Positions 7,102-33,482 of a stretch of DNA of 33,482 nt are shown one piece after another. The notes under the pieces were generated by a model. The model ran no database searches and was not told the DNA's origin. It saw nothing but the letters and a program-made list of their open reading frames with translations. The stretch's first letter is position 1. Each line of letters starts with the position of its first letter. Origin of the DNA: a virus; the IMG/VR virus record IMGVR_UViG_3300034111_000131, positions 1 to 33,482 of that record, one strand, 5' to 3'. Made by a program: the position numbers and the translations under genes.

Positions 7102-7131
7102 AACTATATTAATTTGCGCCCGTCTTTAATT
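7102..7131 (-). promoter_or_regulatory. Late start-abutting motif, copy 3 (tail operon)
   Basis: AAATTAATATAGTT abuts the ATG of the 489-residue tail gene, in the gap after the large terminase. It differs from the consensus TAATATTGTT at one position (A for T). The AACAA box position reads AATTA. Confidence 0.5.
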
Positions 7132-8281
7132 AGAAAGCAAAGTAGGCGTCGTCGGTAAAGTATTGTTCTTTTATGTAGGTTGTCGCGTACCTAGTGGCGT
7201 CCATTGCGTCGTCGTAAAGCTTAACAGGTTCGTCTAAGATTTGGTCGCCCATTTTTTTCCACTTGTAATTCTGGTATTCTTTCTTTAAGTGTTCGTTTTC
7301 AAGACAAAAGACCCCGAAGGTTTTAATGTTGTCGATACCTTTCTTCACTGACTTGTTCGCATTTAGAACATTGTAACCCGCGTTGTTCATTTCGGCTATA
7401 ATTTCGGGGCGTGCGTAGTCGGCAATTATTTCCGTTTCTTTCTCGATGTTTAGGTCAGCTAGGCGGTCTATAAGGTTCGAGGTTGTTAGGTAGCTTTCGT
7501 AAATTACGGGTTCTATGAAAATGTCTTTCTCATGCCAATAGACGCGCACTAACGCGGTCGGGTGATTGTAACCAAAGTCTAAGCCATAGACGAACTGCGT
7601 AAAGCGTGAAGGCCTGTGAAGTGCAAATGTCCAGTTTGAGTAAATATTGCTTTTGCTTATAGCCTTTTCACCTAGCGCGTAGATTTGGTAAAGGTCGGCG
7701 TCTGTTCTTTTTAGGTCTTCAATCGTTCGTTTGATACTATCAGGCAAAAACGGGTTGTCTTTGTACGTGGACTTTATTAGTACACTTTCTTCTTTTGGTA
7801 GTTCATAAAGCCAGCTATTCGACTCTGAGGGGTTGTAGTCAAAAATCATTTTGAACTCAGTACGCATATTCAGCTGCAAAAAGTCTTCATAGAATAATTC
7901 GTTCGCCTCGTTACACCATGCTATAGAGCGCTTGCGGCCGCGCACCTTTTGCTCGTCATCTAACGAAAAAAATTCAACCATAGACCCATTTGGAAAGGTG
8001 TACGTGTTTGACGACATATTGTGGCTATTCTTGTCGTAGATACCAGACTCTTTAAGGACCTCGAAGAAGTCACGCATAGCCGTAGACTTTAGGGCGTTTA
8101 ATGTCTTACGAATAATCGAAACGACCACGCCTTTGTTCTGTAGGCAATAGACTAGAATAAGCTGGCAAAGCGAGTAGGTCTTACTTGAACGCGAACCCCC
8201 TTCGTTAATGATAAAACGCGCCTCGTTATTGTAAAGCGCGTCGTAGTTACGTTCAAAGACTATTGTACTCTTTAGTTCCAT
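7130..8281 (-). CDS. terL: Terminase large subunit
   Basis: The DNA-packaging motor ATPase and headful nuclease, 383 residues. Walker A is GGSRSSKT (28-35); the Walker B region is IAWCNEANE (120-128) with adjacent acidic residues. The RNase H-like nuclease carries its acidic triad at GLDFGY (D235), IADYA (D288) and YDDAMDATRYA near 360. This is the PBSX/Terminase_3-type architecture. It follows the small subunit with a 1-bp gap. A homologue with about four in five identical residues (by eye) but different synonymous codons is at 30480-31640. In the main phage tail genes follow directly, and the portal is some 13 kb away around the circle. This is a less usual order than terminase-portal-capsid. 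Confidence 0.96.
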   Translation of the reverse strand: MELKSTIVFERNYDALYNNEARFIINEGGSRSSKTYSLCQLILVYCLQNKGVVVSIIRKTLNALKSTAMRDFFEVLKESGIYDKNSHNMSSNTYTFPNGSMVEFFSLDDEQKVRGRKRSIAWCNEANELFYEDFLQLNMRTEFKMIFDYNPSESNSWLYELPKEESVLIKSTYKDNPFLPDSIKRTIEDLKRTDADLYQIYALGEKAISKSNIYSNWTFALHRPSRFTQFVYGLDFGYNHPTALVRVYWHEKDIFIEPVIYESYLTTSNLIDRLADLNIEKETEIIADYARPEIIAEMNNAGYNVLNANKSVKKGIDNIKTFGVFCLENEHLKKEYQNYKWKKMGDQILDEPVKLYDDAMDATRYATTYIKEQYFTDDAYFAF

Positions 8282-8282
8282 G

Positions 8283-8714
8283 TTACTCTAGTTCTTTGGT
8301 GTCGGGTCTAATAATGCTTATTTTGATTTCGTTTATGTTTTCGCCGTTACTTGTTACGTCCGTCTTTTCGGTTAACGCATTTAGTCGGGCTACGATATTC
8401 TGTTGGTACTGCCCAACGAGCGCCCCTTCGACTTGGTCGTTTCGGATTTCTTCTTTAATACGCGTAACGATACTAATAAATGCGTCGAACACCCCCCCGA
8501 CGTTGTACCAATAATTATTTATTTCTTGGCCTTGTTTATTGCAATACGTTTTAAAGCCGTCAATTGTAAGGGGTGGCACGTGTTCTTCGTACAATACTCC
8601 TTTATTGGTTGCCTTTGGTACTTTACGGGTACGGCTCTTTGTTTCTATTACGTAGTTTTCGAATAGGGTGTAAAGTTCTTCTGGTTCTTTTAAGTGTCTA
8701 GGCCTTCCTGCCAT
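8283..8714 (-). CDS. terS: Terminase small subunit
   Basis: A 143-residue protein beginning MAGRPRHLKEPEELYTLFENY, a basic N-terminal start typical of Bacteroidota phage small terminases, followed by a helical middle with TIDGFKTYCNKQG and an ARLNALTEKTDVTS segment toward the C-terminus. It should recognise the phage DNA and recruit the large subunit. The assignment rests on its position 1 bp upstream of terL and on a colinear homologue at 31719-32147, also next to a terL. It overlaps the preceding 64-residue gene by 17 bp. No cos or pac site could be identified from the sequence alone. Confidence 0.88.
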   Translation of the reverse strand: MAGRPRHLKEPEELYTLFENYVIETKSRTRKVPKATNKGVLYEEHVPPLTIDGFKTYCNKQGQEINNYWYNVGGVFDAFISIVTRIKEEIRNDQVEGALVGQYQQNIVARLNALTEKTDVTSNGENINEIKISIIRPDTKELE

Positions 8715-12210: not shown

Positions 12211-12423
12211 TTATCCTTGTTTAAATTGTTTTACTTCGTCTTTTAGTCGTTCTACGTACAAAGTCGCGTCCATAAGTTCGTCTTGTAGGTGTGTAAGCCA
12301 TTCTAAGGCGCTTAGGTCGTTTCTTTCTAGCGTTGTGTTGTATTTCATTATTCCGAGTTTCGAACGTTCGTTAAAACGGGCCAAAACACGTAACACTATT
12401 TTGTCTTCTATTTGTTGTTTCAT
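12211..12423 (-). CDS. Small helical protein, MazG-like fragment (70 aa)
   Basis: The centre reads LSALEWLTHLQDELMDATLY, the EW-HLQ-ELMDA-VY pattern seen in short phage proteins often annotated as MazG-like or nucleotide-pyrophosphohydrolase-like. At 70 residues it has only one helix-EExxE-like segment and lacks the rest of the catalytic core, so activity is doubtful. It overlaps the YqaJ exonuclease gene by 4 bp and is followed by the structured gap. Confidence 0.6.
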   Translation of the reverse strand: MKQQIEDKIVLRVLARFNERSKLGIMKYNTTLERNDLSALEWLTHLQDELMDATLYVERLKDEVKQFKQG

Positions 12424-13100
12424 AGGAAATTATAAAGGGTTTCGTAATACTCGCGGCATAGTTCGACGCGTTCTTTAATTTGTTCTATTACTTCGTCGTC
12501 ACGTTCGACCTCAAAGACTTTAACACGGCGGTTGTCGGGGATGTGGTCGAAATTGTGGCGCTTTTGTACTTCGTCGATTAGATCCAAACTTTCTTCTAAA
12601 AGATTGGCGTTCCAGTGCGCGCGACGGATTTCGTCTTGAACCATGTCTAGCGGTGTATTGACTAGGCAGTAAACTAGTAAACTTTTTTGTTTACCCGTTA
12701 GCCACATATAGCCTTGCAATTGGTAGTAATAGTCTTTAGTCGGTATTTCCGTAGCAAAGAACGGGAAAGTCGTAGCATCCCAAGAACTTTTTACGTCTAA
12801 AAGTAGGTCGTCCGTGTTTACGTCGGGCGTACCCGTTACCCAGTCGTTAGTAAAGTGTTCGTCGTTCTTCAAAATAAAGCCTAAGTCTAGGACGTCGCTA
12901 GCTAATTTAATGCTTTCGTCTTCGACTAGGTTACCTTTGTCGGTGTAACGCGAGTTAAAGGTTTTGACTATTCCGTATTTTGCTTGTAATACTTGTTCTT
13001 CGACGTAGGTCTTAGCCGTTTGGCTTAGTATTTCGCTTTTTGAACGCGGCGAGGTCATTATTTTGCCAAGCGCCGAGCATCGTACTCTAAAAGTATTCAT
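12420..13100 (-). CDS. YqaJ/lambda-exonuclease-type recombination nuclease
   Basis: A 226-residue PD-(D/E)XK nuclease: GTPD (D93), DVK (D102, K104) and the following QLQGYMW motif (Q127, Y131) form the expected active-site series. The enzyme should resect 5' strands of double-stranded ends to expose ssDNA. Its partner, the ERF annealing protein, is the adjacent upstream gene (4-bp overlap), the classic two-component phage recombination pair. The length matches the YqaJ family. It probably supports concatemer formation and repair of packaging ends. Confidence 0.9.
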   Translation of the reverse strand: MNTFRVRCSALGKIMTSPRSKSEILSQTAKTYVEEQVLQAKYGIVKTFNSRYTDKGNLVEDESIKLASDVLDLGFILKNDEHFTNDWVTGTPDVNTDDLLLDVKSSWDATTFPFFATEIPTKDYYYQLQGYMWLTGKQKSLLVYCLVNTPLDMVQDEIRRAHWNANLLEESLDLIDEVQKRHNFDHIPDNRRVKVFEVERDDEVIEQIKERVELCREYYETLYNFL

Positions 13101-13615
13101 AACGCGTTTAACATTTCGGTTTGTGACTCAGTTAATGTAAAGCTAGACGTTATCTTTTCTTTGGTTACTTTGCCGTCTACAATTGCTTTGCACGCGTCTT
13201 GAAAGCGTTTTGTATCAATAGCGGGTAATTTCTTTACTTGTTCGCCGCTTGCGTCCGTGTCTTTGTCCGTAACAAGTCCTAAAGACGAACTCAAAGCATA
13301 ACGTCGGTAATATGTAACCCCCGACCCGAAGCTTTGGTAGTCGTTCATACCTTTAATCGTTACGTGAGGTATTGCTACCTTACTTTCGAGGTTCTCACCG
13401 CTTTCTACGTGGAAAATAAGCGTAACAATGTAGTCGATACCCTCTTTAGTGTCTAGCATTTGGGTAAATCCTAGCCCGTGTTTCTTTAGTAGCGGGTTAA
13501 TCTTGTCGAAAATTGCGGGTAAGTCGGCGTAAGAATAGCCAAACCCTTGCGTTCCTTTGTGAATTACTGGCACTTCTTGTTGAAACGCTGCCAAAGCTTT
13601 AAATAAATTTTTCAT
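13097..13615 (-). CDS. erf: ERF-family single-strand annealing protein
   Basis: About 172 residues, with the ERF core FAYADLP-like YSYADLPAIFDKINPLLKKHG, then GVTYYRRYALSSSLGL and DKDTDASG, the family's most conserved block. It anneals complementary ssDNA made by the YqaJ nuclease, whose gene overlaps it. The ATG at 13615 is chosen over 13666 because the conserved domain begins at MKNLFKALAAFQQE and the start context is ACAAGAACATG, as in other early genes. The 47-bp upstream gap holds TATATTCG (one off TAnnTTTG), possibly an internal promoter. Confidence 0.92.
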   Translation of the reverse strand: MKNLFKALAAFQQEVPVIHKGTQGFGYSYADLPAIFDKINPLLKKHGLGFTQMLDTKEGIDYIVTLIFHVESGENLESKVAIPHVTIKGMNDYQSFGSGVTYYRRYALSSSLGLVTDKDTDASGEQVKKLPAIDTKRFQDACKAIVDGKVTKEKITSSFTLTESQTEMLNAL

Positions 13616-13662
13616 GTTCTTGTTTTTTAATTGTTTTGATATGCGAATATAGTCATTATATT

Positions 13663-14196
13663 TCAATTCAAACTATTTTTTTGCAAAATTTTAATTTTTT
13701 CTTTGTACGTATGTATTAAATACTTCAATTCGTCGGGTGTATACTTGCGCGTTACGTGGGCTTTTTCGTGCAATTCTAGTAACCTTTGCGCGCCTATTCG
13801 CTTTTCTATTCCTATTTGGTATTCTAATAAGTTTCCGTGTTTCCATTGGTTACAGGCTACGCATTGACCGTGTACGTTATCTTCATTGAATGTAACTGCT
13901 TTGTGTCCACCTGAACTCCAAAAATGTCCTGCGTCAAATTTATCTCCGAGTTTTGAACCGCAACTGATACAAGGCTTATTCTTATCACGTTCTCTTATGT
14001 ACTTATTGAAAACTACTTGGGCTTCTTTTAACCAGTCTGAGGTTGTTTTTAGGTTTTCTTTCATTCGTGTTTTCGTCTGCTTCCATTGCTTCTCTCTTGC
14101 TTCAGCTACAAAAGCACGGACACACTCGTCTTTTAGACAGTATTTATGATTCCATCGGATAGGCTCAAACTTTTCCCTACAGTTCTTACATCTCAT
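13663..14196 (-). CDS. ninG: NinG/Rap-like recombination endonuclease
   Basis: 177 residues with paired zinc-binding cysteines at C3/C6, C20/C25, C76/C79 and C112/C115. DAGHFWSSGG (88-97) and FNEDNVHGQCVACN (103-116) are the hallmark of the lambda NinG (Rap) HNH-like family. NinG/Rap acts on recombination intermediates such as Holliday junctions and D-loops, in keeping with the neighbouring ERF and exonuclease. Its start overlaps the methyltransferase gene by 11 bp. Confidence 0.92.
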   Translation of the reverse strand: MRCKNCREKFEPIRWNHKYCLKDECVRAFVAEAREKQWKQTKTRMKENLKTTSDWLKEAQVVFNKYIRERDKNKPCISCGSKLGDKFDAGHFWSSGGHKAVTFNEDNVHGQCVACNQWKHGNLLEYQIGIEKRIGAQRLLELHEKAHVTRKYTPDELKYLIHTYKEKIKILQKNSLN

Positions 14197-14857
14197 CGAA
14201 TATAGATATTTGATTTGTATTTGATTTCTTAACTATGTTTAATGCCGTTTCGAGTATTGTTCTTCCCGCTTCATAGTCCACAAGATTACGTGCCATTTTA
14301 TCTACTCTTTGTTCTCCGTTGTATTTAGTAAAATCATAATCGTGAAACCTTGAAAGTTGACTAACTTTTGAATGAATAAAATTACTTGCTTTTCTATCTC
14401 CTAAATCAGCAGGTAAAATAAAATTAGTCCAATACAAATGACGCCCTCTTTTTTGACCTGGTATTAAAGGCTCATAATACGGAATGACATTTTCAATGCA
14501 AAATTTACCTTTAAAAAAATGTTGCAATAAAATTATTTCTTCATACAACATCATATTTGGATATGTAGCTTTTGATTTACGCTCACCTTCACCTGTATTT
14601 GTTTTTCTCATTCGTGAATGTGTAGGACACGGAGGAGAACTCCATATAAAATCGAACTCTGTAAAATGCTCTAACAAGTATTGGTGTGCGTCTGCAACAA
14701 TTACTATGTCATTCGGAAATCTTTCTTGATAAAGTCGTGCTGCTTCAGGGTCTAACTCTACTGCAGTAATTTCTATTTCTATGCCTGCTTCTTTGGCTAC
14801 TTCGTCCCACTTGTATCGGTTACCACCCAAGCAAGCGTATAAGTTTAAAATTTTCAT
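14186..14857 (-). CDS. DNA C5-cytosine methyltransferase (short form)
   Basis: 223 residues, shorter than most Dcm-type enzymes. It has motif I LYACLGGNRYKW (6-17), a motif II-like ELDPEAA (34-40), catalytic PPCPTHS with C77, ENV (122-124) and GRHLYWTNF (138-146), with LVDYEAGRTILE as a likely motif X. The target-recognition region is minimal. It would methylate phage DNA, possibly to avoid host restriction. Base and codon use look less rich in TCG/CGT-type triplets than the flanking genes, pointing to recent acquisition with the PP-loop gene at 15161-16009. It overlaps the 98-residue gene by 4 bp. Confidence 0.9.
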   Translation of the reverse strand: MKILNLYACLGGNRYKWDEVAKEAGIEIEITAVELDPEAARLYQERFPNDIVIVADAHQYLLEHFTEFDFIWSSPPCPTHSRMRKTNTGEGERKSKATYPNMMLYEEIILLQHFFKGKFCIENVIPYYEPLIPGQKRGRHLYWTNFILPADLGDRKASNFIHSKVSQLSRFHDYDFTKYNGEQRVDKMARNLVDYEAGRTILETALNIVKKSNTNQISIFDEM

Positions 14858-15150
14858 AACTCAATGTTTTTAAATTTTAGTTCGTTTTTTAGTTCGTCGT
14901 AAGCTACCCTTAATTGCGCGTTGCGTCTAGCTAGCTGGTTTAACTCTCGGTTCAAACTTATTATTTCGTTTTGCATTTCGATTAAAACAAGTTCGGTTTT
15001 CAATAGCATTTCTTCGCTATCCTTACCGCCGTTAATGTAGTCCTTTGCGTCTGGTTTGTCCTTTTCAAGTTTTAAGCGTACGTTTTTAATTCGTTCGCGG
15101 ACTACCCAAATTGTGTTCTTAGCCCATAGTATTTTTAAGTCTAGTTCCAT
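14854..15150 (-). CDS. Coiled-coil protein of unknown function (98 aa)
   Basis: Almost entirely helical and charged, with heptad spacing from about residue 48 to 95 (LLKTELVLIEMQNEIISLNRE onward) and no membrane segment or catalytic motif. It sits between the methyltransferase (4-bp overlap) and the PP-loop gene. It has the base composition of the phage backbone, so the two foreign-looking genes may have entered separately around it. Function unknown. Confidence 0.65.
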   Translation of the reverse strand: MELDLKILWAKNTIWVVRERIKNVRLKLEKDKPDAKDYINGGKDSEEMLLKTELVLIEMQNEIISLNRELNQLARRNAQLRVAYDELKNELKFKNIEL

Positions 15151-15160
15151 TTTTTATTTT

Positions 15161-16009
15161 TTATAGTCCACAATAACCCGAATCACAATCATTGAAATCA
15201 TCGTCAAATAAGTCCAATTGCAATTTATGGTTTTTAATCTTTTCGTAAGTTACTCCGCTTTTAAAAGTGCATCCGTTTTTTTGTTCCATGCGCACAAACC
15301 AATCAAACTGCTTCTCGTCTCGTTGGCTCATATGCTTTAAGAATATCTCGGATCGGTGAAAACATCCAACACAATTGTTTTTGTAAGCAAAGCGCACAGG
15401 TTTATCTTGCCAGTAGTTCTCAATAGTGTCTTTAAATATTCCGTCTTCAATTAGCGGAAAGCGTGTCATTCTATACGGCAACTCTTTCCATTTGTTACGT
15501 CCGTTTTTATGTCCTACTTTAAACTTAAAGTTTTCTACTCCGTCAACTGCTCGCTCAATCATTGTTTTGGCACGGCTCATTTCATTGGCTCTAAACCCTA
15601 TTCTCATTTCAACTGGTAACTCCGTATTTTCGTAACACCATTGTGCAATTGGCTTTACTTTCATGTCGGTGGTACAAAAGCGAGTCATTTGATTAGGTAA
15701 GTAATTTGTGCCATTAGCCATCTTGTAAGATGCTATTACCTCATCAAACGTTCTATCGCTTAACCAAATAATCTGCTGCCCAATGTACTGCTCAAGGTCT
15801 AGCATTGTGTAAATTATTGTATCTTCCTCAAGCGTACCGATAAACTCCTTGCCTATTCTATCGCTTACAATTTGACGAACCTTCGCATCAGGAAATAAAA
15901 CATTGATGTCGTCAGTTCGAACCAATGAAAATACGTTAAAGTCAGCAGGGTAGTTAGCTGCTATGTAGCTCGATGTTTTACCACCGCTTAATGAATTAAT
16001 TGTTTGCAT
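15161..16009 (-). CDS. PP-loop (PAPS reductase-like) ATP pyrophosphatase
   Basis: 282 residues opening with MQTINSLSGGKTSS, an SGGKTS PP-loop (8-14) as in the PAPS reductase/adenine-nucleotide alpha-hydrolase superfamily. Cysteines occur at RFCTTD, NNCVGCFHR and the terminal SGYCGL, which could hold an iron-sulfur cluster or zinc. Phage members of this family are common but rarely characterised; roles proposed for relatives include tRNA or DNA thiolation and sulfur-type base modification. Its placement near a C5 methyltransferase suggests a nucleic-acid modification task (inference). Base use differs from neighbours, as for the methyltransferase. Confidence 0.85.
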   Translation of the reverse strand: MQTINSLSGGKTSSYIAANYPADFNVFSLVRTDDINVLFPDAKVRQIVSDRIGKEFIGTLEEDTIIYTMLDLEQYIGQQIIWLSDRTFDEVIASYKMANGTNYLPNQMTRFCTTDMKVKPIAQWCYENTELPVEMRIGFRANEMSRAKTMIERAVDGVENFKFKVGHKNGRNKWKELPYRMTRFPLIEDGIFKDTIENYWQDKPVRFAYKNNCVGCFHRSEIFLKHMSQRDEKQFDWFVRMEQKNGCTFKSGVTYEKIKNHKLQLDLFDDDFNDCDSGYCGL

Positions 16010-16010
16010 T

Positions 16011-16940
16011 TTAAAAAGTGTTTAAGTTGCGTAATTTTTGGCTTGTTGACATAATGCCGTCGGTTATTGTTTTTTGTATGTCTTTAGGTCGGTGTTTTCG
16101 TAAGGGGTCTATTCCGTTAATTGTAAAGCCCAACCCGCTATTAAAGTCGCAAACTACTGGGTAGTCAATTTCGGTATGTTTGCCGCCAGTTTCGGTGTCC
16201 TTAACTTTTTCGACGTTAACCCACGTTTTAAATTTATACTCAGGATGTTTAATTAAGCGGTGTATTACTAACATGTCATCGCATCGGTTTAAGAAAGCCT
16301 TGCCGCCCTCAACGTGATCTTTTAAAGGTGCTTTTAAATGCCCTTTTAGTTCGCCATCGGTGTATAGGTTACCGCTTCGACCGCTTTCAGTATTCGGGTG
16401 CGTGTTTATGTAGATAGTCATTCCTGTTTTATTGACAAATTGACGGGCAGTATTCATAAATTCGTAATTCCCAGCAAACGACATTTCGCGGTCTAGGCCC
16501 GTGAATGGATCAATAAGCCCCACTTTGCACCCACTTTGTGCAAATAGCGCCAATATTTCTTCTGGTTTGTACAAATTAGAGTTGTCTACGAACGAAAAGT
16601 ATTGTTCTAAGTACGCAACGTCGCCCGAAATTTGTGAATGCGTTAATTTACTAAAGTGTTTACCCCGATACATTTGCACCATGTCGCGCAAAATTTGCCC
16701 CTTTTGATTTTCACCCGACCAAATGCAGAACGTTAAGTCATGCTTTAAAGCTAGGGTAAGGAAATACCAATTTATCCAGTACGTTTTCCCTACGTTGTCA
16801 TGGCCTAGAATTATGTTTAGTTGCTTAGGTTTAAATTTTAAGTGTTCGTCTAGGTAGCAGTCAAGCCCAAGACCTTGTTTTATTTTGCCGTCCCTTACGT
16901 CTAGTAAGTATTGTAGTGCGTCGCCTTGTTTGAGTAGCAT
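16011..16940 (-). CDS. RecA-fold replicative helicase (DnaB/RepA-like)
   Basis: 309 residues. Walker A is GHDNVGKT (46-53), Walker B is VGLIDP (140-145) and a sensor segment YINTHPN follows (177-183), as in DnaB/RepA/Twinkle-type hexameric ATPases. It lacks an N-terminal primase or DnaB N-domain, so it is a bare RecA-like motor. It lies 1 bp from the initiator-like gene and 1 bp from the PP-loop gene. Together with the initiator and DnaA-like proteins upstream it should open and unwind phage DNA. A RecA-type recombinase is the less likely alternative. Confidence 0.85.
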   Translation of the reverse strand: MLLKQGDALQYLLDVRDGKIKQGLGLDCYLDEHLKFKPKQLNIILGHDNVGKTYWINWYFLTLALKHDLTFCIWSGENQKGQILRDMVQMYRGKHFSKLTHSQISGDVAYLEQYFSFVDNSNLYKPEEILALFAQSGCKVGLIDPFTGLDREMSFAGNYEFMNTARQFVNKTGMTIYINTHPNTESGRSGNLYTDGELKGHLKAPLKDHVEGGKAFLNRCDDMLVIHRLIKHPEYKFKTWVNVEKVKDTETGGKHTEIDYPVVCDFNSGLGFTINGIDPLRKHRPKDIQKTITDGIMSTSQKLRNLNTF

Positions 16941-16941
16941 T

Positions 16942-17565
16942 TTAATTGTTTTTTAGGTGTGCTAAGATAGCGTCACTTTCGGTTACTATTGTTCTGTCCG
17001 CGTATTTATCTAAAATGTCTGCCCTACTAAAGAACTCAGGCGTACAATATTGGTAGTTATTGTCTTTATGGTAGGCGTTAGATTGGCAGTTTTTAATAGC
17101 GTTGTGTATGTCGTCTATTGTGTACCCTTCTTTTATACGTGCTTTGTACGACCTTTTAACTTTGTCGTTCATTACTCTAAACTTTCGTTTAAATGTAGCC
17201 TGCAATAATAAAAGTAAAGAATCAAAGTCTATTATATTTATATCATTATCATTAACACTATCATTATCGGCATTTTTGGTAACCGCTGGCATATTTGGTA
17301 TGCGGTCGCATGCGGTGGCATCCCATCGCTTCTTTGCGTTTTCGCTATTACGTTGTCGTATACCTTCGTACTTTTCCAAGTCACGCTTTAACGTTTGTTT
17401 AATTGGTTCGAATACAACCTCAGTAAATTGGTCGCTTTCTGGGTTCTTGTCGTTAACGTACCTCAATACGTGTTTAAACAATTTGCCCGCTTGTTCGTCG
17501 TTTAGCTTTTCAATTGTATGGATTAAGTCCACGTACAATAAAAAACTTTTCTTGTCTTTTGCCAT
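16942..17565 (-). CDS. Replication initiator-like protein (DUF6291 + phage C-terminal DnaD-like domain)
   Basis: About 207 residues. The N-terminal half (KSFLLYVDLIHTIEKLNDEQAG, then HVLRYVND) matches the DUF6291 type found in phage and plasmid replication proteins. The C-terminal half (VMNDKVKRSYKARIKEGYT, then YCTPEFFSRADILDKYA) matches the conserved C-terminal module of phage initiators and helicase loaders. The helicase gene follows at 1 bp. The start at 17565 is preferred over 17583 because its upstream ACAACAA matches other early starts and leaves the structured RNA non-coding. Residue use between the halves (Asn/Asp-rich) is a linker. Confidence 0.8.
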   Translation of the reverse strand: MAKDKKSFLLYVDLIHTIEKLNDEQAGKLFKHVLRYVNDKNPESDQFTEVVFEPIKQTLKRDLEKYEGIRQRNSENAKKRWDATACDRIPNMPAVTKNADNDSVNDNDINIIDFDSLLLLLQATFKRKFRVMNDKVKRSYKARIKEGYTIDDIHNAIKNCQSNAYHKDNNYQYCTPEFFSRADILDKYADRTIVTESDAILAHLKNN

Positions 17566-17583
17566 TTGTTGTTTGTTAAGCAT

Positions 17584-28692: not shown

Positions 28693-28822
28693 TTTCTTCG
28701 TTCGTGTTTTGTTCTTGCGCTAGCTTTTGTAAATACTGCAATAAAGGCAATCCGTATTTTACGGGCATTTCTTGAATGTAGGCCTCTAGTTCTTTCACAT
28801 TCTCTTCAGTGAGCTGAATCAT
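28676..28822 (-). CDS. Hypothetical small helical protein (48 aa)
   Basis: Frame from ATG at 28822: MIQLTEENVKELEAYIQEMP, then VKYGLPLLQYLQKLAQEQNT. It is helical and amphipathic, has no membrane segment, and overlaps the next gene by 17 bp. In some flavophages a short helical protein precedes the gp10-like gene. Start context (TTTAAGACGT) is ordinary. Function unknown. Confidence 0.6.
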   Translation of the reverse strand: MIQLTEENVKELEAYIQEMPVKYGLPLLQYLQKLAQEQNTNEENGVQE

Positions 28823-28827
28823 ACGTC

Positions 28828-29097
28828 TTAAATTAAAGTTACTCCAATAGCGGCAGCAACATACTCGTTCACTACGTTGTTGTCAGTACCCCATGCTGCG
28901 AACTCTTCTTCGGTTAAGGTGTAGTTACCTTGCGAAAGTTGAAGTCCGTCTTCAGTTAGGAGCTGCCAATACGTTGTGCAAGTCGTTGCCTCAGTTGTAA
29001 AGTTAAGAACTAAAACGGACATTTGCGTAGCCGTTCCTGCGTTTAGTGGGTATACAATCGGCTCGATTGCTACTCCTTGTGTTGGTTGTGTTTTCAT
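28828..29097 (-). CDS. Small virion-associated protein candidate (89 aa)
   Basis: 89 residues, mostly beta and Thr-rich (PLNAGTATQMSVLVLNFTTE, then TYWQLLTEDGLQLSQGNYTL), with no cleavage signal. This fold-like pattern with a WQLLTEDG turn recurs in small phage proteins next to fibres. It comes right after the fibre gene (12 bp) and 5 bp before the 48-residue gene. A fibre-associated or cement role is inferred. Confidence 0.65.
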   Translation of the reverse strand: MKTQPTQGVAIEPIVYPLNAGTATQMSVLVLNFTTEATTCTTYWQLLTEDGLQLSQGNYTLTEEEFAAWGTDNNVVNEYVAAAIGVTLI

Positions 29098-29109
29098 ATT
29101 TTTATTTAA

Positions 29110-30450
29110 TTAGTAAAATGCGTTCCAAGTTGTTCCGTTATATCCGTAGTGTTTGTTATCCGTGTTATCGTAGACAACCAATCCTGCGGCAGGTGATGCT
29201 ATTGCGTTGCGTTGCGTTGTGGTCATTCGTGGGGGTAGGAATCCTTTTGTTGTGCTTGTTAACTCAAGGATTGAACTTGCATTTGCTGCGGATTGATTAC
29301 CGATGCTTAATGCGGTTGCTATATAACTATTATTTCCCGATTGAGCGCCATTCAAGAAAATATATCCCGTTGCATTTTGATAAAGCGTTAGCGTTCCGTT
29401 AGGTCCGTCATTATTTAATTTTGCTCTTAAACTTCCTGCTGCATTTGTTAAAGAAAAATTTGAGTATGCGCCTGCTGCATTAAAGTTCCCGTTTGTATCA
29501 TACGTTATTGCGTATGTATTTGGAGCTACGAATCTCGCAGTACCATTGACGTCTAAACGGAAGCCTGCGTCTGTGGTGGTGTTGATGAGGACGTTGCCTG
29601 TAGAAAATATACGCATCCTTTCAGTTCCATTAGTTCTAAAAGCGTGTCTAGATTGATGGTCATAATCACCCGAACCATAAAGGTCTAATGTTTGCGTGTT
29701 TCCGTTGTTAAATAAACGTAATCTAAAATCAGATGAACCAATACCACTTGATGCAGTTTGAATCATTGCAGTTGCTCCGTTGCTTACAGAAAAGCTACTT
29801 AAAGACGTACCTACAATAGTCGTATTCCCCTGCACCCTCGCAGTACCATTGACGTCTAAACGGAAGCCTGCATCGGTTGTTGTGTTTATTAGGACGTTGC
29901 CGTTTGGAGATAAACGCATTCTTTCAGAAGCATTTGCATAGAAAGCAAGTATTTGTTTATTCGTGTAAAAATAGCCTATGTTTGGCAACGAAGTATGATT
30001 GGTTCCTCCAAGTCCGAACTCGCATATATTACCTGCATTATCTTTAACTCTAATTACAGTAGTCGCATTTGTTCCCGTGCTTAAATTACGGACATTTAAT
30101 CCTTCGAATGTAGAATCTATTGTTTTGACAATATCTACGTCAACACTTGGTGTACTCGTGCCAATACCCAAGCGGTTGTTTGTTGAATCCCAAAATAAAG
30201 ACGAACTCTGCTGCAACACATTCCCCGTACCTTGAAACAATACTCGTCCAACAGTACCCGAAGCTATCGGTGTAGTGCCGACTGTTAAGCCTGTGGGCGG
30301 TAGCGGTATTGCATCAATGAGTTCTTGACCAGTTATAGATCGTGTGACGTAGCTTCCACTCTCAATGGTGGATACTTCGATTAGGTCGGTTGCTTCCAAG
30401 TCGGCTCCCTTGGGAGTCATCTGGGATATCTTCTGTGTTCTAAATGCCAT
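29110..30450 (-). CDS. Tail fibre with internal repeats (possibly chimeric N-terminus)
   Basis: 446 residues. The N-terminus (QKISQMTPKGADLEATDLI) matches the gene at the left end. The shaft has two copies of a module containing GNVLINTTTDAGFRLDVNG, and the C-terminus reads FLPPRMTTTQRNAI then YDNTDNKHYGYNGTTWN, a hallmark ending of Bacteroidota phage fibres. The first 300 bases of the gene (30151-30450) differ in composition from the rest and come before a terminase of the second phage. The part 29110-30150 belongs to the main phage as well. The gene may thus be a join of two genomes. Confidence 0.8.
   Translation of the reverse strand: MAFRTQKISQMTPKGADLEATDLIEVSTIESGSYVTRSITGQELIDAIPLPPTGLTVGTTPIASGTVGRVLFQGTGNVLQQSSSLFWDSTNNRLGIGTSTPSVDVDIVKTIDSTFEGLNVRNLSTGTNATTVIRVKDNAGNICEFGLGGTNHTSLPNIGYFYTNKQILAFYANASERMRLSPNGNVLINTTTDAGFRLDVNGTARVQGNTTIVGTSLSSFSVSNGATAMIQTASSGIGSSDFRLRLFNNGNTQTLDLYGSGDYDHQSRHAFRTNGTERMRIFSTGNVLINTTTDAGFRLDVNGTARFVAPNTYAITYDTNGNFNAAGAYSNFSLTNAAGSLRAKLNNDGPNGTLTLYQNATGYIFLNGAQSGNNSYIATALSIGNQSAANASSILELTSTTKGFLPPRMTTTQRNAIASPAAGLVVYDNTDNKHYGYNGTTWNAFY
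29534..29568. repeat. Direct repeat in the fibre gene, copy 1
   Basis: A 35-bp stretch identical to 29837-29871 and 303 bp apart, encoding the repeated shaft segment (AGFRLDVNGTAR). Perfect DNA identity within a protein-level repeat implies recent duplication or gene conversion, and allows shaft-length change by recombination. Confidence 0.9.
29837..29871. repeat. Direct repeat in the fibre gene, copy 2
   Basis: Identical to 29534-29568. Beyond the 35 bp the two modules remain alike for about 40 bp but with synonymous changes, so the shared segment has been homogenised. Confidence 0.9.
30024..30150. repeat. 127-bp exact terminal direct repeat, right copy
   Basis: Identical to 1-127. The sequence to the left continues as fibre of the main phage. 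The sequence to the right leads into the second phage-like block, while the left copy leads into the rest of the main phage. It is thus a branch point. Confidence 0.97.
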
Positions 30451-30480
30451 ACCTATATTGCAAATTGTCAGCCAAATGTT
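30451..30480 (-). promoter_or_regulatory. Late start-abutting motif, degenerate copy 7
   Basis: GCAATATAGGT abuts the fibre ATG at 30450, with AACAT in the position of the AACAA box. It belongs to the second phage segment, so a related form of the signal exists there too. Confidence 0.4.
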
Positions 30481-31640
30481 TAGAAGGCGAAGTATGAGTC
30501 ATCGGTATAGTACTCCTGGCGTATGTGCGTGGCAGCGTAGCGGATGGCATCCATGGCATCATCGTACAGCTTCACGGGCTCATCCATGATTTGGTCACCC
30601 ACCTTTTTCCATTTGTAGTTCTCATACTCTTTCTTGATGCGTGGCTCATCCTCGCAGACCACTCCGAAGGTCTTGATGTTGTCGATGCCCTTCTTGACCA
30701 CCTTGTTGGCGTTCTGCACATCGTACCCAGCGTTGTTCATCTCGGCAATGATTTCAGGGCGAGCGTAGTCAGCCACGATAGTGACGTGCTTCTCAATGCC
30801 AAGGTCGCCCATCTTGTCGATGAGGTTGGTGGTGGTCAGGTAGCTCTCGTATATGACCGGCTCGATGTAGATGTCATTGTCGCACCAGTAGACTCGTATG
30901 AGTGCAGTCGGGTGATTGTATCCGAAGTCGAGTCCATACACGAAGTTGACGAACCTTGCCGGGCGATGCTTGACGAATGACCAATTCGAGTAGATGTTGC
31001 TCTTGCTGATGGCTTTCTCACCGAGCGCATAGATTTGATACAAGGCTTCATCGGTGCGCTTGAGGTCCTCAATCTGTCGCTTGATGCTGTCGGGCAAGAA
31101 TGGGTTGTCTTTATACGTTGACTTGATGATGATGCTCTCCTCCATCGGCAGCTCGTACAGCCAAGAGGATGACTCACTCGGGTTGTAGTCGAAGATTAGC
31201 TTCTGCTCGGTCCTCATGTTGAGCTGCTGAAAATCTTCGAACCATAGCTCATTGGCTTCATTGCACCAGCCAAGGTCACGCTTGCGCCCTCGAATCTTCT
31301 GCTCGTCATCCACGCTGAAGAACTCCACGATGGACCCATTGCTGAATGTGTAGATGTGCTCCGACTTGTTGTGGCTCTGCACGTCATATATCTCCATCGC
31401 CTTCATGATTTCAAAGAAGTCACGCATCACCGTTGCCCTCAAAGCTGGGAATGTTTTGCGCACGATGCTGACCACCTTGCCAGGATGTTGGAGGCAGTAC
31501 ACCACGATCATTTGGCAGAGCGAGTAGGTCTTGCTCGAGCGGCTTCCACCCTCATTGATGATGAAGCGCACACCAGGGTCAGCCAGTGCGGTGTAGTTCT
31601 TTTCGAAGATGACAGTGCTGTCGATTGTGATTTCAGCCAT
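30480..31640 (-). CDS. terL: Terminase large subunit of a second, related phage
   Basis: 386 residues, with GGSRSSKT Walker A, LGWCNEANEL Walker B and nuclease motifs GLDFGY, VADYARP and YDDAMDAIRYA. By eye it shares about four in five residues with the enzyme at 7130-8281, but the codons are more GC-rich (CTC, ATC, GAG, AAG in place of TTA, ATT, GAA, AAA). The fibre begins 29 bp downstream, whereas in the main phage two tail genes, the tape measure and another tail gene come between. A 78-bp upstream gap holds a TATATTTG box. Confidence 0.95.
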   Translation of the reverse strand: MAEITIDSTVIFEKNYTALADPGVRFIINEGGSRSSKTYSLCQMIVVYCLQHPGKVVSIVRKTFPALRATVMRDFFEIMKAMEIYDVQSHNKSEHIYTFSNGSIVEFFSVDDEQKIRGRKRDLGWCNEANELWFEDFQQLNMRTEQKLIFDYNPSESSSWLYELPMEESIIIKSTYKDNPFLPDSIKRQIEDLKRTDEALYQIYALGEKAISKSNIYSNWSFVKHRPARFVNFVYGLDFGYNHPTALIRVYWCDNDIYIEPVIYESYLTTTNLIDKMGDLGIEKHVTIVADYARPEIIAEMNNAGYDVQNANKVVKKGIDNIKTFGVVCEDEPRIKKEYENYKWKKVGDQIMDEPVKLYDDAMDAIRYAATHIRQEYYTDDSYFAF

Positions 31641-31701
31641 AGGTCAAAGTTTAGGCAATAGGGATGCTATACGAGTATTTCTCTCATATAGACACTTCCG
31701 A

Positions 31702-31709
31702 CAAATATA
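31702..31709 (-). promoter_or_regulatory. -7 box TATATTTG upstream of the second terL
   Basis: A perfect TAnnTTTG match in the 78-bp gap between small and large terminase genes of the second block. The leader would be about 55 nt. The main phage has no such gap; its two terminase genes are 1 bp apart. Confidence 0.5.
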
Positions 31710-31718
31710 GCAATAATA

Positions 31719-32147
31719 CTACTCTGTCGGTCTAATTATATTCACCTTCACCTCGGAGATGCTCTGCCCTCCAGAAGTGATGTCAGTCTTTTCAGTGAGA
31801 CCATTCAGTCGCTGAGTGATGGATGCATTGAACTGCCCAACCATGCCTCCTTGAATTTGGTCGTTTCGAATTTCATCGCTTATGCGCGTGCAGATTGTCG
31901 TAAACGCTGAATATCTCCCTCCAGTGTTTGCGAAATAATCGTGCACCACAAGACCATGATCGTGTGCAAATACTCTGAAGCCACTCATTGTAAGCGGTAC
32001 CTCCAGTGGAATCGGTTCAGCCTTCCCAGTCTTATTTGAAAGGGAATATTGATACCTTGGATTCTCTTTCACTTTCTTTCTATACTCAACGAAAAGCTGA
32101 TATAGGTCCTCTGGCTCTTCGAAGTTTCTTGGTCTACCAGTTTTCAT
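31719..32147 (-). CDS. terS: Terminase small subunit of the second phage
   Basis: 142 residues homologous to the protein at 8283-8714: start MKTGRPRNFEEPEDLYQLF, middle VPLTMSGFRVFAHDHG and a shared RLNGLTEKTDITSGG segment. The middle is more divergent than the ends. It overlaps the preceding gene by 4 bp, with no 64-residue gene in between. Its role is DNA recognition for packaging. Confidence 0.87.
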   Translation of the reverse strand: MKTGRPRNFEEPEDLYQLFVEYRKKVKENPRYQYSLSNKTGKAEPIPLEVPLTMSGFRVFAHDHGLVVHDYFANTGGRYSAFTTICTRISDEIRNDQIQGGMVGQFNASITQRLNGLTEKTDITSGGQSISEVKVNIIRPTE

Positions 32148-32620
32148 ATCAATCCTAATCCTTTTAGTTTACTTTCTGCCCAATCAAGTCCAGTCTTGCC
32201 ACCCCACAGAAGGAATGAAACGTATCCGCAGTCCTCTGGTGCTGAATCCTCGAATGTAGGTTCTGCCCTGGATAGGTATGAGTACATTCTCTTGATCGTA
32301 TCCACTGAAATGGGCTCTTGATTTGCGAGCTGCTGTCCCCGAATTTTTCCCACCTGCGTTGCGCACTTGTTGCCGAGTTCTTTGTTGAGCTCGATTCCTC
32401 TGCGTGCATTGTTGCGCACCGAATCAGGATAGTCTGAGTAGGTTTTCTCTGCGAATGCTGCTCTGAACTTCGAGAATGCGCTCATTTTTGACTCTTCCCA
32501 CATCGAATTGCACACAGCATATCGCTGGTCATTCTCTGGAAAGTCCTGGAGTGCTTCCTCATCGCCCATGCAGCGATTTAGAAACTCATCCTTGGTTTCG
32601 TTTGGTGTTGGCTTTGGCAT
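32144..32620 (-). CDS. Conserved phage protein of unknown function, second copy (158 aa)
   Basis: Homologue of 8889-9362 with both modules conserved: FLNRCMGDEEALQDFPENDQ then QRYAVCN, and YPDSVRNNARRGIELNKELG, EPISVDTIKRMYSYLSR and VSFLLWGGKTGLDWAESKL. The start at 32620 (MPKPTPNETKDEF) is set by alignment to its homologue; a longer frame to 32764 runs through the neighbouring gene and is not supported. It overlaps the 94-residue gene by 35 bp. Confidence 0.75.
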   Translation of the reverse strand: MPKPTPNETKDEFLNRCMGDEEALQDFPENDQRYAVCNSMWEESKMSAFSKFRAAFAEKTYSDYPDSVRNNARRGIELNKELGNKCATQVGKIRGQQLANQEPISVDTIKRMYSYLSRAEPTFEDSAPEDCGYVSFLLWGGKTGLDWAESKLKGLGLI

Positions 32621-32870
32621 TGGTTTTTCTTTTTCGTTTTGGTGTTGGTTCTGCTCTCGGAGCTTCCGTCTGCTCATCTGCCTCAATGCCCTCGTATCGA
32701 ATGCACTGCTCTGGTGCAGTTGTGGTCTCCTTTTCGAACAAATAGCCGAATCCGATGCTGACATAGTATCGGTATCTGTTCACATCTATATTGTCAACAA
32801 CCACTGTCATGTTTCCGAGCGTGGTATTCTTGACGATAGTCTTGCCCTTGTATTCATCTTTTATTTTCAT
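32586..32870 (-). CDS. Hypothetical protein with basic C-terminal tail, second copy (94 aa)
   Basis: Homologue of 9346-9633: identical first 13 residues (MKIKDEYKGKTIV), a conserved GFGYLFEKE segment and a basic tail PKRKRKTNAKANTK. The linker is different in length and sequence. Its start overlaps the sigma-like gene by 17 bp because the 57-residue membrane gene of the main phage is missing here. Confidence 0.75.
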   Translation of the reverse strand: MKIKDEYKGKTIVKNTTLGNMTVVVDNIDVNRYRYYVSIGFGYLFEKETTTAPEQCIRYEGIEADEQTEAPRAEPTPKRKRKTNAKANTKRNQG

Positions 32871-33387
32871 AGTGTATGGATTTAAGCGTGTTTTTTATGT
32901 CAGAGATTAGATAGTGTGCTGACGTCACTGGGATGTTGAAATACTGCGCCATTGATCGTGCTGTTGTCAGCCCCTTATCGAAGTATGCCTTGGCGACTGC
33001 AATCTTGACGTTGTCTGTCAGCCCATCTCGGTAGATGTCCACCGATGACTTCCATCCCTGGTATTGCTGTTCGATTGCGATTTTGTAGTTCAAATCCTCA
33101 TCATCATCGAAAGTGTCAGGAACTGCGATTTCTGATGCCAGGATTCGCTCGTCCTTGAAGCTGTTGACGTTTTTCCAGATGACTTGCCGCTTGATTGAGT
33201 TGAGGATATAGCTCTTGACCTTGCCGACATCCTCGGTGTTGTCATTGATTTCGAGGCAGTGAAGGTATGCGTTGGAGATGACCGTGTCGATAGTGAGTTT
33301 CGGATTGTACTTGGAGCAGAAATACCTGGTGTAGCGATACAACTCCTCATAGTGTGACGATATGTAGCGGTCAAGCGTTGCTTTCAT
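32854..33387 (-). CDS. Sigma-70-family-like factor of the second phage
   Basis: About 177 residues from MKATLDRYISSHYEELYRYT. Region 2-like (YFCSKYNPKLTIDTVISNAY, then VKSYILNSIKRQVIW) and region 4-like HTH (AVAKAYFDKGLTTARSMAQ, then YFNIPVTSAHYLISDI) align with the protein at 9783-10355. The acidic linker is divergent. The start at 33387 is chosen by alignment and overlaps the preceding gene by 17 bp. Conservation in both phages marks it as a core regulator. Confidence 0.7.
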   Translation of the reverse strand: MKATLDRYISSHYEELYRYTRYFCSKYNPKLTIDTVISNAYLHCLEINDNTEDVGKVKSYILNSIKRQVIWKNVNSFKDERILASEIAVPDTFDDDEDLNYKIAIEQQYQGWKSSVDIYRDGLTDNVKIAVAKAYFDKGLTTARSMAQYFNIPVTSAHYLISDIKNTLKSIHYENKR

Positions 33388-33482
33388 ACCAGTTGGTGAA
33401 ATCTTTGTACCAGATTTTGCGTCTGATTTGCGAGCAGAAGCACTCACGGTCGGGCTGTCCGGTCACGCTGACCTTGATAGCC
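33371..33482 (-). CDS. Small CxC protein of the second phage (partial at right end)
   Basis: The open frame enters from the window edge and gives 36 residues: VSVTGQPDRECFCSQIRRK, ending FTNWYESNA. It matches the C-terminal half of the 67-residue protein at 10321-10524 (VTGQYDNRCLCG, ending LQWFEANA). The N-terminal half lies beyond the window. As in the main phage, its end overlaps the sigma-like gene. Confidence 0.75.
   Translation of the reverse strand, partial: AIKVSVTGQPDRECFCSQIRRKIWYKDFTNWYESNA

Follow-up and report, generated by a model that had tools for sequence, protein, structure and literature searches.

Why would a phage carry a cytosine methyltransferase gene and a PP-loop enzyme gene close together, between its replication ATPase gene and that of the NinG junction endonuclease? 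This arrangement is found in the virus record IMGVR_UViG_3300034111_000131, of which the whole length of 33,482 bases was analysed (the window). The two genes, MT (a short C5-cytosine methyltransferase) and PP (a NinC-like PP-loop enzyme), are separated by a small coiled-coil-like gene, CC, and all three are real: they are intact, co-directional open reading frames (ORFs) on the minus strand, at the places given to them by a first-pass annotation of this DNA. The same annotation read MT and PP as imported genes for a combined cytosine and sulfur or adenylyl-type modification of nucleic acid, placed on either side of a backbone gene. The reading that we prefer, and hold to be rather likely, is that the stretch between ATPase and NinG is a cargo slot for modification genes, and that MT and PP are independent pieces of counter-restriction cargo within it.

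The slot was surveyed in related phages with the ATPase gene, rather than MT or PP, as the criterion for picking loci. The best 80 of 344 relatives were used, and 78 of these loci hold both borders, giving 68 distinct slots that represent the nearer relatives. Slot length varies from 294 to 2560 bases among the 78. A relative of CC is present in 78 of 78 ATPase-picked slots and in 46 of 48 NinG-picked ones, in agreement with its proposed role as backbone; under a stricter rule no CC is found in 24 of 109 slots. CC itself has no Pfam, PHROG, NCBIfam or PADLOC match. It divides the slot into two sub-slots; wherever it can be placed, the ATPase side is that of PP (16 of 16) and the NinG side that of MT (10 of 10).

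What else is carried in the slot? The 68 slots hold 63 accessory ORFs of at least 120 amino acids (aa), which form 15 single-linkage clusters, each named by one representative. Forty of these ORFs belong to methyltransferase or Mom clusters (including the L187-type cluster of 2 ORFs, counted as methyltransferase on a DPPY motif alone), 13 to PP-loop clusters and 10 to others. The clusters comprise short and full-length C5 enzymes, two phrog_757 types, N6/N4 enzymes, Mom and two PP-loop subfamilies. Mom, N6/N4 and full-length C5 methyltransferases thus occupy the same slot in sibling phages while belonging to enzyme families other than that of MT. The swapped-in families are matched by PF01555 (2.7e-35), full-length PF00145 (6.8e-69), Mom PF25680 (2.8e-30) and phrog_757 (2.2e-67), and the second PP-loop subfamily by phrog_424 (2.5e-48). 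Judged by one rule, methyltransferase motifs occur in 32 of the 63 slot ORFs against 3 of 172 accessory ORFs outside the slot. A count of 34 methyltransferases inside and 0 outside is biased, because the reference methyltransferases came from the slot itself; the motif rule and PHROG scans of 46 outside representatives, 20 of which were scanned a second time individually, are the fairer controls. These scans find two methyltransferase clusters outside, with 3 ORFs that the motif rule picks out too, and a second outside match to phrog_498 is a ParB-like protein that matches another part of that profile.

Close relatives of the window show the cassettes changing hands. In L087 and L088, PP is 97% and ATPase, Erf and exonuclease (Exo) are 96-97% identical to the window (in L088, PP 97%, ATPase 96% and Exo 97%), and a phrog_757-type methyltransferase stands in MT's place. 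L002 has a Mom gene and an MT with 98% identity, but lacks PP. Each gene is therefore found without the other at 97-98% identity, PP without MT in L083, L087 and L088 and MT without PP in L002. In L016, a PP with 97% identity adjoins an ATPase with 82% and a CC with 33%, which argues that cassettes move between backbones. The complete order ATPase-PP-CC-MT-NinG recurs in L018, and L016 has it too with a small gene added. The idea of imported genes is thus upheld, by presence and absence, by exchange between backbones and by the GC content of third codon positions (GC3).

Base use had been offered as a further sign of import, and here the support is partial. MT has the lowest GC (33.8%) and GC3 (0.238) of the 39 genes, but synonymous-codon z-scores are modest, at -1.7 for MT (rank 8 of 39) and -1.8 for PP (rank 6 of 39). 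The neighbours said to be rich in TCG and CGT are not so among the nearest genes, where TCG accounts for 0 of 6 serine codons in NinG, 0 of 2 in CC, 0 of 10 in MT, 2 of 13 in PP and 4 of 13 in ATPase. In related loci (which are not independent), MT has a lower GC3 than the average of the core genes beside it in 32 of 32 cases and PP in 45 of 48, so that the difference in composition appears to be a lasting property of the cassettes. Codon use was also considered as a mark of recent import and set aside: it is weak for MT and PP, and the real outlier is the 30-33 kb end of the record.

The assignment of MT as a C5-cytosine methyltransferase with Cys77 is confirmed by PF00145 (35.3 bits, cut-off 22) and by an alignment of 64 sequences (thinned at 90% identity, window included), in which Cys77 and ENV are invariant. 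The conserved blocks are GGNR, in the motif I region, PPC, which is motif IV with Cys77 as the catalytic residue, and ENV, which is motif VI; R139 is invariant too (64 of 64). MT falls below the cut-off of the NCBIfam dcm model TIGR00675 (25.6 bits against 100.65), and this 329-position model matches residues 5-124 only. The AlphaFold2 model (mean predicted local distance difference test score, pLDDT, 84.5) resembles DNMT3A (Z 14.9 over 189 of 223 residues, root-mean-square deviation 3.1), M.HhaI (Z 13.5) and M.HaeIII (Z 13.2), and a PDB sequence search gives DNMT2 at 0.004 as sole match. As modelled, MT seems to keep the whole catalytic domain, and its recognition region would be reduced, to judge from its length of 223 aa against the 327 residues of the M.HhaI chain. 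Family, motifs and predicted fold support its classification as a nucleic-acid-modification gene. Short enzymes of this kind had been called uncommon, but one pattern scan of IMG/VR yields 184 MT relatives. Among phage records, 16 match MT, and in 10 of these the match spans 80% of the protein or more. The orphan C5 methyltransferases of the Flavobacterium phages stinky9-1 and hemulen are 63% identical to MT and share its PF00145 family and annotation, although the neighbourhood in stinky9-1 differs from that of MT. As for a type II partner, PADLOC finds no endonuclease match among the 12 distinct window proteins scanned. In L002, a Mom-family gene (L002:4506-5453; PF25680 2.8e-30, phrog_1384) lies directly before the 98% identical MT.

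PP matches phrog_424, named 'phosphoadenosine phosphosulfate reductase', over residues 2-281. Lambda NinC matches the same family at 1.2e-89, and the two proteins are 22% identical over 161 aa in direct comparison. Conservation in PP, counted over 24 aligned sequences, centres on the PP-loop and on five cysteines (Table 1). The FCT-type cysteine, the CxxC and the C-terminal cysteine pair are found in 9 of 9 aligned sequences, among them the window, lambda NinC and five relatives from Bacteroidota genomes, and the C-terminal tail has a pLDDT below 50 in the predicted model. In the second PP-loop subfamily of the slot (L164) the cysteines are kept and SCGITS replaces SGGKTS. Relatives of PP in Bacteroidota genomes (L384-L403, L405, L406) carry C-x-x-G-x-C or a near variant at the C terminus; three of them (L396, L400, L405) adjoin methyltransferase-like genes, as judged by eye.

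To which known enzymes is PP closest? The PADLOC SspD profile matches residues 56-255 with 42.2 bits (no cut-off is given), and the DndC profile matches residues 104-159 at 0.0034. Aligned by hhalign, PP and DndC share 65 columns (E 1.3e-4, probability 53.5). Like DndC and SspD, PP is a PP-loop ATPase, and an R[FW]CT-type cysteine with a CxxC is common to five of five DndC proteins, for which a three-cysteine [4Fe-4S] centre and a cysteine dyad are described in an excerpt of PMC10853773. In contrast, DndC proteins have 435-472 aa against the 282 aa of PP, and their extra cysteine pair precedes the CxxC in all five, where that of PP is at the C terminus. By its sequence PP is DndC-like, yet not a DndC: the cysteine layout is shared in part, the extra pair lies elsewhere and the NCBIfam model TIGR03183 gives no match. 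No DndD, DndE, SspB or SspC partner is found by PADLOC among the 12 distinct window proteins scanned. Of the proposal that both genes modify DNA, the half that concerns MT is supported, and from the likeness to DndC- and TtuA-type enzymes we infer that PP is a nucleic-acid-modification gene as well. A choice of PP chemistry by fold was attempted and abandoned, since CysH-type enzymes, NcsA, TtuA, LarE and GMP synthetase lie close together. The fold rests on one good model of five, the other four being poor; DndC and SspD chains are absent from the rows shown, which excludes nothing. A PDB sequence search with PP gives nothing meaningful.

Alternatively, PP might thiolate or adenylate tRNA rather than DNA, tuning translation or resisting tRNA-cutting defences, a reading that we regard as possible but clearly less probable than DNA-directed cargo. 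Foldseek gives no match to the PP model at E 0.001, and its best two are the tRNA enzymes TtuA (3.9e-3) and MnmA (4.5e-3); NcsA and TtuA are among the top structure-comparison rows. However, the slot-mates of PP modify DNA, the exception being a 2-ORF cluster whose match is weak and TRM-like, and the matches of PP to sequence families are SspD and DndC.

The PHROG name invites another explanation, in which PP would be a genuine reductase of phosphoadenosine or adenosine phosphosulfate (PAPS or APS), carried as an auxiliary metabolic gene to boost sulfate assimilation in the host. A viral 'PAPS reductase' of haloviruses is interpreted in this way in an excerpt of PMC12418951, and the model matches PAPS and APS reductases, together with GMP synthetase, NcsA, TtuA and LarE, all at Z 9.0-10.2. 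We find this improbable. Neither Pfam (at E 0.1) nor NCBIfam has a family that matches PP (PAPS-reductase and TIGR03183 included), three of its five conserved cysteines follow the DndC-like RFCT...CxxC layout, it shares its slot with DNA modifiers, and no other sulfur-metabolism gene is found among the 30 window proteins scanned against PHROGs.

Do MT and PP work together, as first proposed, so that the same DNA receives both 5-methylcytosine and a sulfur or adenylyl group? They are adjacent and co-directional in the window, and the Cellulophaga phage phi19:3 has three genes in a row, for a PP relative, a small protein and a methyltransferase of another, phrog_757-like kind. Among the 68 distinct slots, PP is present in 11, MT in 7 and both in 2 (1.1 expected; Fisher p=0.32). 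The larger set, which includes loci picked by MT or PP, has both in 6 of 109 distinct slots (p=1.0). When loci are picked by NinG, 48 of 80 hold both borders; of these, 41 lack the two genes, 5 have just PP, 1 has just MT and 1 has the pair. Nor is PP drawn to methyltransferases in general: a methyltransferase or Mom gene is present in 37 of the 68 slots, in 6 of 13 PP-loop slots against 31 of 55 others (p=0.55), by ORF clusters. The recount by clusters was made because the tblastn rule missed some methyltransferases; that rule, which includes TRM-like genes, gives 5 of 13 PP slots against 29 of 55 others (p=0.54). Since PP and MT are distributed independently, and each occurs alone at 97-98% identity, a coupled modification is not supported and seems very unlikely. 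Least credible of all is an assembly chimera in which the MT-PP neighbourhood is an artefact: codon use marks the end of the record at 30480-33447 as foreign, and a second terminase module lies there, but the MT-PP region lies far from it and its gene order recurs in the other contigs named above.

Is restriction a likely force behind a slot for counter-restriction cargo? Over the 68 loci, four-letter palindromes are seen less often than expected (CCGG 97 against 749, GATC 411 against 1125, GGCC 412 against 836, CATG 808 against 1622), and this avoidance in the phage group makes restriction a plausible selective force for the slot. An attempt to read the target of MT from palindrome relief was given up, as relief is not clear in the 68 loci and a set of 99 loci is too mixed. 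CCGG avoidance in the 68-locus set is about equal in MT-bearing and other loci (0.15 against 0.13). When all 16 palindromes are scored in the 99 loci, the 23 with MT avoid CCGG less than the others do (p=5e-4), in a set that is biased by mixing distant phages picked by different genes.

Several observations weigh against the cargo-slot reading. None of six palindromes is clearly relieved in the 7 MT-bearing loci of the 68, where GATC, GGCC, CGCG, CTAG and CATG are avoided more strongly, and positions 1-28700 of the window lack CCGG despite MT (0 seen, 53 expected). The slot also holds GNAT, HNH-like, ABC-GNAT, TRM-like and other genes (10 of 63 ORFs), and some modification genes lie outside it (the two methyltransferase clusters and a glucosyltransferase). 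Furthermore, relatives of PP in bacterial genomes stand in many contexts, often with no modification gene within 1.8 kb (by eye), and the PDB fold matches of PP single out no sulfurtransferase.

Some of these genes have features of their own. A GNAT acetyltransferase gene lies on the ATPase side of CC at L167:7932-8492, L174:3957-4517, L177:5996-6556 and L178:2355-2915, and a phrog_757-type methyltransferase lies across CC from it in four of the four distinct slots with GNAT; it is possible that these two form a real two-gene pair. Upstream of the slot in one relative, a glucosyltransferase (L184:2106-2957; phrog_842 1.5e-58) suggests a base-glucosylation route. In another, a ParB-like gene directly precedes a C5-type methyltransferase gene (L225:6439-7996), about 4 kb past NinG.

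How might a slot for independent counter-restriction cargo work? The phage group would exchange mostly DNA-modification genes in it, cassette by cassette, with homologous recombination across the conserved flanks by the phage Exo and Erf proteins as the probable route. MT, as an orphan enzyme, may add 5-methylcytosine to phage DNA at a short site, which could blunt host restriction. PP, if it works like DndC- or TtuA-type enzymes, would adenylate a nucleic-acid target at the expense of ATP before transferring sulfur to it. Its Cys112, Cys213 and Cys216 are laid out such that they may ligate a [4Fe-4S] cluster, its mobile tail might relay sulfur through Cys275 and Cys280, and the sulfur itself could come from a host cysteine desulfurase. 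MT and PP would act independently.

The features of the locus are collected in Table 1. The minus-strand order is replication-initiation-like gene, replication ATPase, PP, CC, MT, NinG, Erf and exonuclease, in which MT has overlapping start and stop codons with both of its neighbours, CC and NinG. PHROGs for replication initiation match the replication-initiation-like gene (DUF6291) weakly (phrog_16167, 4.6e-6). No phage in the collection comes close in DNA sequence to the 10-kb middle of the window. Judging from relatives, the host is probably a member of the Bacteroidota. The closest genome matches to PP (60-61%) are on contigs of metagenome-assembled genomes labelled Rhodobiaceae and Campylobacterales, which may be stray viral contigs.

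Table 1. Positions in the window of the genes and conserved residues discussed in the text.
Feature	Positions	Strand	Evidence
MT, short C5-cytosine DNA methyltransferase, 223 aa	14186..14857	-	PF00145 1.1e-8, phrog_363 5.8e-16
MT residues 11-14, GGNR	14816..14827	-	invariant 64/64
MT residues 75-77, PPC, with Cys77	14627..14635	-	invariant 64/64
MT residues 122-124, ENV (E122-N123-V124)	14486..14494	-	invariant 64/64
PP, NinC-like PP-loop enzyme, 282 aa	15161..16009	-	phrog_424 2.9e-21, PADLOC SspD 2e-11
PP residues 8-13, SGGKTS, PP-loop	15971..15988	-	S8, G9, G10, T12, S13 24/24; K11 at least 90%
PP Cys112 in RFCTTDMK, aligns with Cys129 of a DndC	15674..15676	-	invariant 24/24
PP Cys213-x-x-Cys216	15362..15373	-	invariant 24/24
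PP Cys275 and Cys280, C-terminal tail	15170..15187	-	invariant 24/24
CC, coiled-coil-like core gene, 98 aa	14854..15150	-	relatives in slots; no profile match
NinG/Rap junction endonuclease, one slot border	13663..14196	-	PF05766 5.6e-42
Replication-type ATPase (primase/helicase-like), other slot border	16011..16940	-	phrog_18375 5.7e-20
Erf single-strand annealing protein	13097..13666	-	PF04404 3.7e-27
Recombination exonuclease	12420..13100	-	phrog_5715 2.5e-64
Replication-initiation-like protein (DUF6291)	16942..17583	-	PF19808 1.2e-23
Second terminase module (within 28700-33482)	TerL 30480-31640, TerS 31719-32147		codon z outlier

The far end of the record stands apart. Four genes at 30480-33447 are extreme codon outliers (z -7.7 to -14.1). 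The second terminase is 75% identical to the first, and a terminase search that matches the window twice matches each of eight related records once. In relatives, as read from 40 of 80 terminase loci, the end module occupies the position that the first terminase module (7130-8714) has in the window. The record also bears two different restriction-avoidance signatures: in positions 1-28700, GATC is normal (20 against 22.5 expected) and CCGG absent, and in 28701-33482, GATC is avoided (5 against 21.6 expected) and CCGG occurs 3 times (7.7 expected). The end at 28700-33482 is probably chimeric.

MT and PP are new members of known families, and the nearest known counterpart of their setting is the nin region of lambda (NC_001416), where a NinC-family PP-loop gene likewise lies between O/P and NinG. 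Lambda NinC is of the same PP-loop type as PP, with the FCT-type cysteine, the CxxC and the C-terminal cysteine pair; unlike the window, the lambda region has no methyltransferase among its annotated nin genes. NinC is dispensable for plaques and has no assigned function according to an excerpt of PMC10695390. Judged by titles and the starts of abstracts, the literature yielded no description of the ATPase-NinG slot, no demonstrated function for NinC-family PP-loop proteins and no use of the slot to place this family among nucleic-acid modifiers. The general idea of phage PAPS-reductase homologues as DNA modifiers is not new, because an excerpt of PMC11437467 notes that those of phages, lambda's included, are related to the ones of phosphorothioation systems. 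It adds that the latter presumably act in DNA modification and that the phage homologues deserve study.

The slot is in effect a natural catalogue of probable counter-restriction genes and provides guilt-by-location evidence for the phage 'PAPS reductase' family as nucleic-acid modifiers. We tentatively suggest, as a possibility well short of probable, that the phrog_424 family, lambda NinC included, is a stand-alone enzyme that sulfurates or adenylates nucleic acid and protects phage DNA, borrowing a cysteine desulfurase from the host. If phrog_424 proteins are indeed sulfurating or adenylating enzymes that are traded beside methyltransferases and Mom, lambda NinC would gain a function. Through the slot, the role of NinC becomes cheaply testable with lambda and its nin deletions.

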